Shown here: positions 55,818 through 64,000 of the stretch, one piece after another
Numbering within the stretch: position 1 is the first letter of the stretch
Layout: every line of letters begins with the position of its first letter
Assembly (NCBI RefSeq): GCF_023821985.2
Contig: NZ_CP098805.1
Coordinates: forward strand, 5,819,001 to 5,883,000
DNA length: 64,000 bases
DNA from: Dyadobacter chenhuakuii
GTDB taxonomy: Bacteria > Bacteroidota > Bacteroidia > Cytophagales > Spirosomataceae
Reading direction: 5' to 3'
Made by a program: the position numbers and the translations under genes
The notes under the pieces: model-generated
Databases searched by the model: none
Told to the model about the DNA's origin: nothing
The model's input: only the letters and a program-made list of their open reading frames with translations

Positions 55818-57023
55818 ATGGGTAAAAAATTAAATAAGCGCATCGCCGAATTTAAAGACGCGGCTAACATTCGATCCAAAGGTCTTTATCCCTATTTCCG
55901 CCCCATCGAATCCGGGCAGGATACGGAAGTGATCATCAATGGTAAGCCGGTCCTTATGTTTGGGTCCAATTCTTATCTGGGATTGACCTCGCATCCTTAC
56001 ATTATTGAATCGTCGCAAAAAGCGGTTCAGAAATACGGAAGCGGATGTGCCGGTTCGCGATTCCTGAACGGAACGCTGGACATTCACGAGGAACTGGAAA
56101 GAAGGCTTGCCGCTTACACCGGAAAAGAAGCTTCGGTGCTTTTCAGCACGGGTTACCAAGCTAATTTAGGCGCCTTGTCAAGCCTTACGGGCCGTAACGA
56201 TTACCTGATCCTGGACGAAAGCGACCATGCTTCCATCATTGACGGTTGCCGGTTGTCTTTCTCAAAAGTGATCAAGTATGCGCACAATGATATGAAAGAC
56301 CTCAGGAAAAAACTGAGCCTTTTGCCGGAAGAAGCCGTGAAGCTGATCGCTACGGACGGAATTTTCAGCATGGAAGGCGATATCGTTAAACTTCCTGAAT
56401 TGAATGCCATCGCAGCTGAGTTTGACGCTTCGGTTTTGGTGGATGACGCGCACAGTCTGGGTGTTATCGGGAAAAACGGAGCAGGAACAGCTTCCTACTT
56501 CGGCCTGACCGAGACTACTGATCTGATCATGGGAACATTCAGCAAATCGCTTGCCTCTTTGGGCGGCTTTATTGCCGGCGATGCAGCTACGATCGATTAC
56601 CTGAAACACCGCGCACGGTCATTAATGTTCAGTGCGAGTATGACGCCGGCCGCAGTAGGCAGCACATTGGCAGCATTGGACATCATTGAATCCGAGCCGC
56701 ATCACATTGAACGCCTTTGGGCCAATACAAGATATGCAAAAGAATTGTTGCTGGTAAACGGTTTCGACCTGGGCAAAACAGAAAGCCCGATCCTGCCGGT
56801 TTACATCCGCGATAACGAGAAAACATTCCTGATGACCAAGCTGTTGCAGGAAGATGGCGTGTTCGTGAACCCGGTGGTTTCACCAGCGGTTCGTCCGGAA
56901 GATTCGCTTATCCGTTTCTCGCTGATGGCGACGCACACTTTTGGGCAGATTGAAGAAGCAGTTGATAAAATGGCTAAAATATATCGTCAGATCTGTCCCG
57001 AAGCTGTAACCGCAAAACTATGA
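55818..57023 (+). CDS. spt: Serine palmitoyltransferase-like alpha-oxoamine synthase
   Basis: This is a 401-aa PLP enzyme (fold type I). The PLP lysine is K243 in [17 protein letters not shown]. The sequence GTFSKSLAS is typical of serine palmitoyltransferase, while biotin (AONS) and threonine (KBL) enzymes carry TLGKA-type motifs. Other family parts: [57 protein letters not shown], and the aspartate in [11 protein letters not shown]. It condenses serine with a fatty acyl-CoA (or acyl-ACP) to 3-ketosphinganine, the first step of sphingolipid synthesis. It is coupled by ATGA overlap to the GNAT gene. 2-amino-3-ketobutyrate CoA ligase is the main alternative. Confidence 0.88.
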
Positions 57024-58141
57024 AGCGCATTGCCCACGTAAACTCTCCCAAAGACCTGGAACTGTTCATTGATTTTCCCCACGAATTACATAAGGAAAAT
57101 CCCAATTACGTTCCCGAGCTCTTTATCGCGCAAAGAGATATGCTTTCTCCGAAGAAGCATCCCTTTTATGAACATTCGGAGGTTAAGCTGTTTTTAGCGT
57201 ACGACGGAGATAAGATTGTGGGTAGGGTTGCGGCGATTGATAACCGCAATCATAATGCGTTTACAGGCCGAAAAGATGGCTTTTTTGGATTTTTTGACAC
57301 GGTTAATGATCAGGAAGTCGTCGATCTGCTCATCGGGCAGGCGGCTGCGTGGGTGAAGGAAAAAGGAGCGGATAACCTGATCGGGCCGGTGAATTTGTCG
57401 ACCAATGATACGGTGGGCCTGCTGATAGAAGGTTACGACCGGCCGCCAATGGCGATGATGCCTTACAATCCGCCGTATTACGTGCCTTTGCTCGAAAATA
57501 CAGGACTTGTGAAAAAGACGGACCTGCTTGCTTACGAGATCAATGTGAACGAGGCAAATGATAAGTCGGTAAGGATGATCGAAGCGCTGGAAGGAAGGCT
57601 CAAAAGGAGCGGGATCACCATTCGCAAGATCAATCTGAAAGATTTCAAAAACGAGGTGGTGAAGATCCGGGAAATTTACAACAGCGCCTGGGACAAGAAC
57701 CTTGGCTTTGTTCCGATGACCGAAAAGGAATTCGATTACCTGGCCAATGACCTGAAACTGGTCCTCGATCCCAATTTTTGTCTCGTTGCAGAGAAGGATA
57801 ACAAGCTGGTCGGTTTCGTGTTGGGCATCCCCGACATTAACCAGATCCAGATCAAGATTAAAAAAGGACGTTTGCTGCCGACCGGAATTTTTAAATTACT
57901 GTTTGGCAAAAAAAATATAACCCGCATTCGCGTGCTGACATTGGGTGTGATTGAAGGTTACCGCAAAATGGGCATAGAAGCCTGTTTATACGGCCATATC
58001 ATCAAAAACACTTACGGCACAAAAGTCACAGGTGGCGAATGTTCATGGATGCTGGAAGGCAATTATCTCATGAACCACGCCATTGAACAGATCAACGGCA
58101 AGCTGTACAAACGGTACAGACTGCTGGAAAAAGCAATATGA
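57020..58141 (+). CDS. GNAT-type acyltransferase, candidate bacterial ceramide synthase
   Basis: This 373-aa protein has GNAT-like halves: an N-terminal part ([38 protein letters not shown]) and a C-terminal part ([39 protein letters not shown]). It contains the family-wide block [16 protein letters not shown] then [13 protein letters not shown]. The same order of spt, a GNAT protein and an epimerase is seen in Caulobacter sphingolipid genes, where the GNAT protein (bCerS) N-acylates the sphingoid base. It would transfer an acyl group to the amine of (3-keto)sphinganine here. The functional call is inference from gene order; the fold is directly visible. 4-base overlaps bind it to both neighbours. 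Confidence 0.8.
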
Positions 58142-62665: not shown

Positions 62666-63535
62666 ATGAGTGAATTAAATATCTTAGGCGTTCCGAGGAA
62701 CCGCAAGTTCTCGCCTAACCACATTGGAAATGACGATGCGATTTTTTCTTTGACAGCAAAGGAATTAGAAAAAATGGGATGCAAAGTGCGGATCAGTTTT
62801 GAGGACGATTTTTTGAAAAATGAAAATATCGCCGAGCGGCATATCTTCACGATGGCCCGCCAGAAAGAAGTGGTTAAAAAATTGCAGGCGTTGGAAGAAA
62901 ACGGTGCACAGGTCATTAACTCAGCATTCGGAATAGAAAATTGCTTTCGCACGAATCTGACAAATGCTTTAAACCAAAATAACATTCCCGTAGCCGAAAG
63001 CTACATTGTGCCAACGGATTACACAGGGGACGATGTTTTTGATGCCATTACAGGGAAAGGTTACTGGATCAAAAGAGGCGATTTTCACGCGATACACAAA
63101 GAGGACGTTTCATTTGCAGCCTCGCGTGAAGAAGCCAGGGAGATTTTGCGTGAATATGCATTGCGGGACATTCCGGATGCGGTGATCAGCAAACATTTGA
63201 TCGGCGACCTCGTGAAATTTTACGGGGTGCGCGGGACGGATTTTTTCTTTTGGTTTTATCCTTATGATAACAACCATCATAAATATGTTGAATACCAGAA
63301 CATTAACAGCGCATCGGCTTATTATCCTTTTGATGCGGAACGTTTGCAGCAAGTTGCTACGGACGCATCGGGCGCAGTTGGAATAGATATTTACGGCGGT
63401 GACGCCATTATAGGAAAGGACGGCAGTTTCCGAATTATCGATCTGAACGACTGGCCAAGTTTTGCGCCATGCCGTGACCAAGCCGCCGGACACATTGCCA
63501 GCATTATATACGAGAAATTTACAAAAAGCAATTAA
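62666..63535 (+). CDS. ATP-grasp-like protein of the lipid cluster
   Basis: This is a 289-aa protein with no family I can name. The C-terminal half looks like an ATP-grasp domain: GYWIKRGDFHAIH (candidate ATP-binding Lys), DAVISKHLIGDLVKFYGV, and GIDIYGGDAIIGKDGSFRIIDLNDWPSF, where the acidic and Asn residues could bind Mg-ATP. The N-terminal half has a Rossmann-like opening (LNILGVPRNRKFSPNHIGND). ATP-grasp enzymes join a carboxylate to an amine, or phosphorylate, using ATP. A role in building a head group is inference from its place between the nucleotidyltransferase and the CDP-alcohol transferase, with which its stop overlaps by one base (TAATG). Confidence 0.72.
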   Translation: MSELNILGVPRNRKFSPNHIGNDDAIFSLTAKELEKMGCKVRISFEDDFLKNENIAERHIFTMARQKEVVKKLQALEENGAQVINSAFGIENCFRTNLTNALNQNNIPVAESYIVPTDYTGDDVFDAITGKGYWIKRGDFHAIHKEDVSFAASREEAREILREYALRDIPDAVISKHLIGDLVKFYGVRGTDFFFWFYPYDNNHHKYVEYQNINSASAYYPFDAERLQQVATDASGAVGIDIYGGDAIIGKDGSFRIIDLNDWPSFAPCRDQAAGHIASIIYEKFTKSN

Positions 63536-64000
63536 TGGATCCAGTTATAAAGCACAACGCCGCTCCCGAACCAGCGCCATCCGCATTTGAAAGCTCACTG
63601 AAATCCAACGATACAGAGGAGCAGATCGATATTTGGTTTTACCGCCCGATCGGCTATCAGATCGCATTGTTTTGTGCCAAAATAGGGTTGAGGCCCAATC
63701 CGGTGACGATTATCAGTATCTTCTTCGGCGTTGCGGCGGGGATCTTGTTTTATTATCAGGAATTATGGATCAATGTGATCGGGATGCTGCTGCTCGTTTT
63801 TGCCAATTCGCTGGACAGTGCGGACGGACAACTTGCGCGGATGACGAATGATAAAAGCCGGTTAGGAAGGATTCTGGACGGGGCGGCTGGTGATTTCTGG
63901 TTCATTGCCATTCACATTGCGATCTGTCTCAGGAGCATGAATGAGGGTTGGAGCGCGTGGATTTGGGTTCCGGGTGTGCTCGCGGGCGCGTCACATGTGG
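63535..64000 (+). CDS. CDP-alcohol phosphatidyltransferase, partial (right edge)
   Basis: The first 155 codons are visible; the rest is past the window edge. The CDP-alcohol signature is in DSADGQLARMTNDKSRLG then RILDGAAGDFW: D-x2-D-G-x2-A-R-x8-G-x3-D, then a final Asp four residues on instead of the usual three. Membrane helices surround it. These integral membrane enzymes move a phospho-alcohol from a CDP-linked donor onto an acceptor. In this cluster the acceptor could be ceramide, giving phosphosphingolipid, or a diacylglycerol. It overlaps the ATP-grasp gene by one base (TAATG). Confidence 0.85.
   Translation, partial: MDPVIKHNAAPEPAPSAFESSLKSNDTEEQIDIWFYRPIGYQIALFCAKIGLRPNPVTIISIFFGVAAGILFYYQELWINVIGMLLLVFANSLDSADGQLARMTNDKSRLGRILDGAAGDFWFIAIHIAICLRSMNEGWSAWIWVPGVLAGASHV

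Follow-up and report, generated by a model that had tools for sequence, protein, structure and literature searches.

An operon-like gene run in Dyadobacter chenhuakuii predicted to make an inositol sphingolipid, with an ATP-grasp protein as regular companion

The stretch of DNA analysed here, 64,000 nucleotides of the Dyadobacter chenhuakuii genome (bases 5819001-5883000 of 6.08 Mb in two contigs; "the window" throughout), ends inside an operon-like run of genes on the + strand. Judged from its gene content, this run probably makes phosphoinositol dihydroceramide via CDP-inositol and sends it outward. It appears to be largely a known inositol-lipid cluster, the so-called alternative type, in a new form. 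What is new is an ATP-grasp protein as regular companion, a likely PfkB inositol kinase in the place of inositol-phosphate synthase (MIPS), ceramide genes fused into the cluster, and an altered motif in the CDP-alcohol transferase.

In the proposed pathway, serine palmitoyltransferase (SPT), a GNAT protein and a reductase would form dihydroceramide. The PfkB kinase would phosphorylate free inositol, or a distant MIPS would supply inositol phosphate, which the nucleotidyltransferase would turn into CDP-inositol, and the CDP-alcohol transferase would then move phosphoinositol directly onto ceramide. The LPG_synthase_TM protein may flip the lipid, while two further proteins, DUF5686 and DUF4833 (the latter with an N-terminal helix and probably exported), would act in the periplasm and at the outer membrane. 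A step on inositol phosphate would be added by the ATP-grasp and HAD proteins, whose genes occur together. If correct, this puts names to the genes behind inositol sphingolipids in Dyadobacter and its relatives. The genes are listed below; those beyond the window were read via L005 (window position = L005 position + 52999).

55818..57023, +, SPT, first sphingolipid step (NF047600, 727.9 bits; contains GTFSKSLAS)
57020..58141, +, GNAT-family protein, presumed ceramide N-acyltransferase, bCerS-like (PF00583, 24.4 bits, cut-off 20.7; position)
58138..59163, +, NAD-dependent epimerase/dehydratase-family protein, presumed ceramide reductase, CerR-like (PF01370, 119.4 bits; position)
59289..61859, +, CarbopepD_reg_2 and DUF5686 protein, probable outer-membrane barrel (PF18939, 193.6 bits; PF13715, 65.5 bits)
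61885..62601, +, nucleotidyltransferase (NTP_transferase), presumed CTP:inositol-phosphate cytidylyltransferase (PF00483, 42.5 bits)
62666..63535, +, ATP-grasp protein, putative ITPK-like kinase or ligase (AlphaFold2 model, Foldseek, profile search)
63535..64500 (L005:10536-11501; the window ends at 64000), +, CDP-alcohol phosphatidyltransferase, 321 amino acids, presumed inositol-phosphate transferase (PF01066, 44.4 bits)
L005:11482-12495, beyond the window, +, LPG_synthase_TM protein (flippase-like)
L005:12582-13292, beyond the window, +, HAD protein
L005:13339-14259, beyond the window, +, PfkB kinase
L005:14275-14847, beyond the window, +, DUF4833 protein

Four-base overlaps join SPT to the GNAT gene and the GNAT gene to the epimerase gene; the ATP-grasp and CDP-alcohol transferase genes overlap by 1 base, and the latter overlaps the LPG_synthase_TM gene by 20 bases. 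The remaining genes are preceded by gaps of 125 (DUF5686), 25 (NTP transferase, for which the ATG at 61885 was adopted in place of the TTG at 61849 given in the list of open reading frames (ORFs)), 64 (ATP-grasp), 86 (HAD), 46 (PfkB) and 15 bases (DUF4833). The same gene order is found in Dyadobacter, Runella, Rhabdobacter (where the NTP transferase was not called) and Parapedobacter loci, and a recurrence of this kind is not chance. The original prediction, drawn from the window alone, had described the genes as far as base 64000; their identity, + strand, tight spacing, order and 4-base overlaps were all borne out, sequence past that base continues the run with LPG_synthase_TM, HAD, PfkB and DUF4833, and the neighbourhood comparison recovers the order in the four genera just named.

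Predicted ceramide genes and the company of the ATP-grasp gene

The first enzyme of the run passes the NCBIfam equivalog model for serine palmitoyltransferase (NF047600, 727.9 bits against a cut-off of 640). Glycine C-acetyltransferase shares its fold family, and models of that enzyme do match this pyridoxal phosphate (PLP) enzyme, which could place the gene run outside sphingolipid metabolism altogether. These matches fall below their curated cut-offs (NF005394, 388.8 bits against 460; TIGR01822, 316.2 against 493), and a glycine C-acetyltransferase identity was rejected; we consider such an origin for the run extremely improbable. The original prediction had singled out production of 2-amino-3-ketobutyrate by the PLP enzyme as the outcome that would undo it, and at the sequence level the models point the other way. 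Its proposal that the cell makes ceramide and joins a CDP-activated alcohol to it gains support from the SPT equivalog and from the cluster core described below.

The next two genes are presumed, by analogy, to encode a ceramide N-acyltransferase and a ceramide reductase. bCerS is a GNAT protein. The assignment of the GNAT gene follows the Caulobacter model of ceramide synthesis (spt, bcerS, cerR; PMC11087976, in the part consulted), whose presumed roles match the first three genes of the window run as judged by domain family and order alone; the head-group genes of the two systems differ.

Genome content argues for the same link. The SPT model scores at least 479 bits in all 22 ATP-grasp genomes examined, out of 40 known (12 above 640 bits, and 10 at 479-526 bits in more distant families). 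Only one of 21 comparison genomes without the ATP-grasp gene reaches 479 bits, the next best scoring 364.5, a contrast weakened by these 21 having been hand-picked and many being related, so that we take its direction and not a p-value. With that limit, the ATP-grasp cluster type appears to be tied to genomes with serine palmitoyltransferase.

The ATP-grasp gene was present in 15 of 392 sampled genomes of the phylum, the D. chenhuakuii genome included. We assembled 96 loci around it: 15 stretches from 14 of these 15 genomes, 80 named loci (the top-ranking 80 among 566 or more relatives) and the D. chenhuakuii locus itself, whose ATP-grasp protein is 99% identical to the homologue of Dyadobacter alkalitolerans DSM 23607 (L042). 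Hosts of the named loci include Dyadobacter, Runella, Sphingobacterium, Parapedobacter, Parabacteroides, Dysgonomonas and Tannerella, as well as Muribaculaceae or Prevotellaceae bins. Counts were made on the 72 loci in which an ATP-grasp ORF was called and each flank reached 6 kb, the other 24 having short flanks or no ORF; they describe what accompanies the gene and not how frequent the cluster is without it. On the same strand within 6 kb, the ATP-grasp gene is accompanied by an NTP transferase in 69/72 loci, a CDP-alcohol transferase in 67/72, a HAD protein in 67/72 and a PfkB kinase in 18/72, and the NTP and CDP-alcohol transferase genes are its immediate neighbours in 55. Over the loci at large, LPG_synthase_TM occurs in 41, MIPS of a 430-450 amino acid type in 40, and PfkB, DUF4833, SPT, GNAT and epimerase genes in 18 each.

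Two inositol-lipid clusters of gut Bacteroidetes were reported by Heaver et al. 2022 (PMC9246714; this and the other papers are cited from the parts consulted). The BT_1522-BT_1526 type of Bacteroides thetaiotaomicron was tested and proceeds via a phosphatidylinositol phosphate (PIP) intermediate. The alternative cluster, a prediction, combines an NTP transferase, a CDP-alcohol transferase and a HAD protein beside MIPS, with exceptions to the adjacent MIPS such as P. copri, and is thought to work via CDP-inositol; species that carry it, B. vulgatus and P. veroralis, make phosphoinositol dihydroceramide (PI-DHC). LPG-synthase-like and carboxypeptidase-regulatory-like proteins lie near both types (PMC9246714). 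The window run contains the NTP transferase, CDP-alcohol transferase and HAD protein of the alternative (B. vulgatus/Prevotella) cluster together with both of these nearby protein kinds. It differs in that MIPS lies away from the cluster, PfkB and DUF4833 are added, the spt, GNAT and epimerase genes are fused in, and the ATP-grasp protein is recognised as a regular companion. This likeness is one of protein kinds; the published B. vulgatus locus tags (BVU_RS13095, 13105 and 13115) leave room for one gene between the NTP and CDP-alcohol transferases, which is the place of the ATP-grasp gene in the 55 loci. With the BT_1522-BT_1526 type the run would have the same kind of end product in common, and an apparent Spirosomataceae form of that type shares DUF5686, DUF4833 and a TetR neighbour with the D. 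chenhuakuii locus (Dyadobacter belongs to the Spirosomataceae in the NCBI taxonomy). That form carries PgpA, GtrA, PAP2_3 and a canonical transferase motif (9/9), and neither an ATP-grasp protein nor an NTP transferase was called in it.

The view in the original prediction that this gene combination resembles no described system thus needs revision for the core, which corresponds to the published alternative cluster, and survives for the ATP-grasp protein. Our literature searches found no paper linking an ATP-grasp enzyme to an inositol-lipid cluster; the term "ATP-grasp" is absent from the main text of PMC9246714 and, by term search of the parts consulted, from PMC12482443, PMC10191378 and PMC10865984. 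Many Bacteroidota would pair this predicted pathway, which is common in Prevotella, with a class of enzyme that goes unmentioned in the main text of its describers.

Proposed inositol supply and transfer to ceramide

The head-group alcohol is most likely inositol, because MIPS is present in 40/72 loci with the same core, the PfkB kinase retains an inositol site, and related lipids are reported from Sphingobacterium and Tannerella. Ceramide phosphoryl-myo-inositol has been reported from Sphingobacterium spiritivorum and inositol sphingolipids from Tannerella forsythia (as cited in PMC9246714). All 11 Sphingobacterium loci contain MIPS, NTP transferase, ATP-grasp and CDP-alcohol transferase genes, and in Tannerella (L082) the core genes are present with no MIPS in view; the match of lipid to locus is at the level of the genus, not of the same species. 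The original prediction stated that inositol was not shown, no synthase being in view: MIPS is indeed missing from beside the cluster, and the comparison across loci now makes inositol the leading candidate.

Among solved structures, the PfkB kinase matches best to chains as long as TM0415 (3.8e-30 to 2.1e-28), two of which carry that name, and the protein after these follows at 5.1e-14. TM0415 is an inositol kinase of the ribokinase family that phosphorylates the 1-position of inositol using pyrophosphate, contacts inositol through D11, N78, Q141 and R145, and uses D234 as catalytic residue (PMC5931981). All five residues are kept in 26/26 PfkB proteins, the D. chenhuakuii protein included, as is the motif D-[AT]-T-G-C-G-D. 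The pyrophosphate-donor signature of TM0415 (K171, F221, R229, R232 and M266) differs: the lysine is kept and the other positions read Y, A, C and I. Since that signature is not kept, ATP is the likely donor, and the kinase here would, unlike TM0415, presumably be ATP-dependent.

In a sample of 121 Spirosomataceae genomes, the ATP-grasp gene was found in 27, PfkB in those 27 and 8 more, and MIPS in 16. PfkB lies within 6 kb of the ATP-grasp gene on the same strand in 26 of the 27; in the last, the two are on two contigs. MIPS is missing from 20 of the 27. Of the eight genomes with PfkB and no ATP-grasp gene, four (L126-L129) carry it beside a PgpA/PAP2_3-type cluster and lack a MIPS match, and four (L122-L125) carry PfkB alone; conversely, L130-L134 hold a PgpA/PAP2_3-type cluster with MIPS and no PfkB within 19.5 kb. 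Judged by gene neighbourhood, then, the PfkB kinase replaces MIPS next to inositol-lipid clusters of two kinds, which would separate two routes to inositol phosphate, synthesis by MIPS and salvage by the PfkB kinase.

A different head group, such as another polyol, a sugar alcohol or some other alcohol, would mean that the likeness to inositol clusters holds at family level only. The absence of MIPS from 20 of the 27 genomes would fit this, as would the weak matches of the enzymes to inositol models and the fact that an unrelated gene cluster of Pantoea also pairs CDP-alcohol transferases with nucleotidyltransferases under inositol-enzyme names, as described in the part of that source consulted. 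The MIPS genes of 40/72 such loci, the conserved inositol site of PfkB and its position in the MIPS place beside two cluster types all speak for inositol, and we regard another alcohol as quite unlikely.

Several observations weigh against the proposed pathway. For D. chenhuakuii the model is a prediction from gene content. Some counted loci come from very close relatives, and the genomes are related, so p-values overstate independence; selection of the loci by the ATP-grasp gene also means that the counts do not give the share of clusters without it. On the supply side, the Km of TM0415 for inositol is poor (12 mM), and the authors of that study leave room for another acceptor (PMC5931981); two residues of the TM0415 acceptor site, I76 and S89, are F and Q in the PfkB protein here. 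PfkB and MIPS show no avoidance in presence and absence over the 121 genomes, 8 of which have both, and G447 combines a MIPS-type cluster (L133) with a PfkB gene elsewhere (L125). MIPS is not beside the window cluster: the sole match in the genome (L006:850-2058, C1:1023917) is a 402 amino acid protein of a different type, which comes closest to TIGR03450, a mycothiol model (301.9 bits, cut-off 638), and is unlike the 430-450 amino acid MIPS of inositol-lipid clusters. The transferases, too, match CDP-inositol enzyme models far below cut-off, the NTP transferase aligning weakly with the N-terminal half of NF041135 (26.8 bits, cut-off 580). In 90/90 CDP-alcohol transferases of ATP-grasp loci, that of D. 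chenhuakuii included, the fourth and last aspartate of the motif is glycine (followed by Asp in 73, Asn in 15, Ala in 1 and Glu in 1), so the chemistry of this enzyme is not certain. Finally, the HAD proteins have the motif D-[YF]-G-G-T, lacking the second aspartate usual in phosphatases, in 86/86. The residues missing from both proteins normally serve as acid or base.

The motif DX2DGX2AR...GX3DX3D was used to find the B. vulgatus transferase (PMC9246714). It is kept in 9/9 CDP-alcohol transferases of the PgpA type, and the window transferase departs from it at the last D, which is G. This fits badly with the published motif and leaves open that the B. vulgatus transferase differs. The missing second aspartate, for its part, makes it less likely that the HAD protein is simply a phosphatase.

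These features bear on how the head group reaches ceramide. Heaver et al. proposed that the CDP-alcohol transferase makes phosphatidylinositol on diacylglycerol (PI-DAG) from CDP-inositol and diacylglycerol, and that the HAD protein moves the head group to ceramide (PMC9246714). The HAD gene, present in 67/72 loci, is in keeping with this route, but the HAD protein lacks the second aspartate of DxD throughout, the ceramide genes stand in the same run here, and the known ceramide transferase, BT_1522, is AUR1-like (PMC9246714). PAP2_3, the AUR1-like family, reaches at most 38.8 bits in 9/9 Spirosomataceae ATP-grasp genomes examined; D. chenhuakuii has one match, of 197 amino acids and 30.4 bits, and thus no AUR1-like protein of the kind seen in the BT_1522-BT_1526 type. 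We consider the PI-DAG route via HAD improbable here. Because the lineage genomes examined have no strong PAP2_3 and the ceramide genes share the run, direct transfer of phosphoinositol onto ceramide would be the simplest reading in the Spirosomataceae lineage. PAP2_3 scores at least 75 bits in 9/9 PgpA-type genomes (75-104 for the cluster-borne proteins) and at least 66 bits in all but one of the 11 ATP-grasp genomes examined outside the family (G188, at 36.4); in those genomes the route may run through PI-DAG and an AUR1-like transferase.

The ATP-grasp protein

The original prediction called this protein ATP-grasp-like and suggested an amino-acid or carboxylate step in the head group. It has no Pfam family at E 0.1 and matches a RimK-family NCBIfam model weakly (E 4.8e-7, 29.4 bits, cut-off 143.4); its AlphaFold2 model (pLDDT 92.1) adopts an ATP-grasp fold by Foldseek, so the fold assignment holds and a Pfam assignment is lacking. 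The motif D-x-N-[DA]-W-P-S-F is present in 98/98 family members, that of D. chenhuakuii included.

A profile of the family found seven sequences in the PDB at E <0.01. Six come from inositol phosphate kinases (1z2n; 7pup, which is ITPK4 of plants; and four named inositol-tetrakisphosphate 1-kinase (ITPK), probably one human enzyme), with values from 2.4e-5 to 0.0037; the seventh is the ligase PsnB, which gives the best whole-sequence match (7drm, 1.3e-5). Matches over a single stretch are to ITPK alone (7pup, 0.00037; 2q7d, 0.0062), those to PsnB and 1z2n being sums of several weak pieces. Among viral predicted structures, the top match is an ITPK (2.9e-10). Against the PDB, Foldseek ranks D-Ala-D-Lac and D-Ala-D-Ala ligases first, the best ITPK being 11th (TM-scores 0.64/0.69), and among the 50 matches listed LysX/ArgX have the best TM-scores (0.71/0.76). 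Fold searches on this model do not separate a ligase from an ITPK. ITPKs (PF05770) have the ATP-grasp fold and, in 7pup and 1z2n, a C-terminal D-x-N-x-x-P-S-[FY] motif in common with the family. PF05770 itself gave 8 weak matches among 58 family members, the best at E 0.0048, none to the window protein and none at curated strength. Over the 392 phylum genomes it gave four weak matches, one above cut-off (G360) and none in ATP-grasp genomes.

Because of the ITPK profile matches, the viral ITPK match, the shared C-terminal motif, the substrates at hand and the HAD partner, we lean, tentatively, towards a kinase: phosphorylation of inositol or inositol phosphate by an ITPK-like enzyme is slightly favoured over a ligase reaction. 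Plant ITPK4 has a fused HAD-like domain (PMC7614388). The carboxylate ligase of the original prediction would add an amino acid or other acid to give an acylated or aminoacylated inositol lipid. The Foldseek ranking, the LysX/ArgX scores and the PsnB match are what such an enzyme would give, and a class-III aminotransferase and a Gfo/Idh oxidoreductase occur in 8 loci, as if an amino-inositol were made and then acylated. Six of the seven PDB sequences and all single-stretch matches are nevertheless inositol phosphate kinases, the top viral structure is an ITPK, and the present operon has no obvious gene for an amine or carboxylate donor; we rate a ligase as a credible minority reading, and a function that is neither takes up the remaining likelihood.

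Returning to the kinase, one tentative proposal, to which we give rather less than even weight, is that the family consists of bacterial ITPK-like inositol phosphate kinases within sphingolipid head-group synthesis. These may produce polyphosphorylated inositol sphingolipids or, with the odd HAD protein, relocate phosphate on the inositol ring, either ahead of CDP-inositol transfer or following it. If polyphosphorylated lipids are made, tandem ATP-grasp copies (L032, L033, L039 and L040) would add more than one phosphate, and a kinase function would extend inositol phosphate kinases into a common bacterial phylum.

One candidate test of kinase against ligase, the metal-ligand motif D-x-N versus E-x-N, was dropped because a D-Ala-D-Ala-ligase-like protein of the same genome reads H-D-P-N by eye. 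The aspartate is present in 98/98 family members and a glutamate in those ligases of this genome that are carboxylase-like or carbamoyl-phosphate-like; L148 had no motif match.

The class-III aminotransferase and Gfo/Idh genes lie in the cluster of two more distant families (L032-L034 and L037-L041), for which an amino-inositol head group is possible. MlaE/F/D genes are found in 7 of these 8 loci, and ATP-grasp genes form tandem pairs in the four loci named above.

A second cluster type and neighbouring features

The PgpA-type cluster of L126-L129 consists of PgpA, DUF5686, a CDP-alcohol transferase fused to DUF4833, and PAP2_3, next to PfkB. Pfam was run on the proteins of L126, L127 and L131, and the other clusters of this type were assigned by likeness and PAP2_3 position. 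DUF5686 also occurs in the PgpA/PAP2-type clusters L126-L131, L133 and L134, and thus seems to accompany both inositol-lipid cluster types. The fusion of DUF4833 and CDP-alcohol phosphatidyltransferase in one protein is seen in L126:15394-16683, L127:3932-5221, L128, L129 and L132, by Pfam in L126 and by equal length and transferase motif in the others. Elsewhere DUF4833, a domain that is uncharacterised and linked to inositol lipids, forms a protein of its own that starts with a helix; its model (pLDDT 83.6) has a best PDB fold match at E 0.085, and neither DUF4833 nor DUF5686 is mentioned in the literature searched. The PgpA/PAP2_3-type genomes G474, G500, G505, G507, G417, G416, G420, G447 and G467 have no SPT above 350 bits despite an AUR1-like protein.

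Upstream of the run lies a candidate regulator:

49122..49733, +, TetR-family regulator (PF00440, 52.9 bits)

It opens a set of TetR-TolC-HlyD-RND efflux genes (window 49122-55369) that precedes the operon here and the PgpA-type cluster in L131, L133 and L134. In relatives with a long enough flank the operon is preceded by a TetR gene, immediately or with TolC-HlyD-RND in between, several having TetR only. Where the efflux genes are missing, the TetR homologue is the immediate upstream neighbour of SPT (e.g. L046, L047 and L051-L057); homologues also lie upstream of the PgpA-type cluster in L127, L129, L131, L133 and L134. We infer that the TetR protein is a candidate regulator of the operon, and both cluster types seem to share one chromosomal slot behind one regulator in Spirosomataceae.

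At the other end, 157 bases past DUF4833, a SAM methyltransferase and a PEMT/ICMT-like membrane methyltransferase follow (L005:15005-16479), possibly for lipid methylation; both are found in 11 of the 80 named loci, all Dyadobacter, with no Runella locus among them. A promoter scan gave 21 sites where shuffled sequence would yield 21.6. The gap that separates SPT from the RND gene contains a 16-nt perfect inverted repeat, CGTTAACATGAAAAAA, with arms at 55380-55395 and 55494-55509 and a 98-base spacer.

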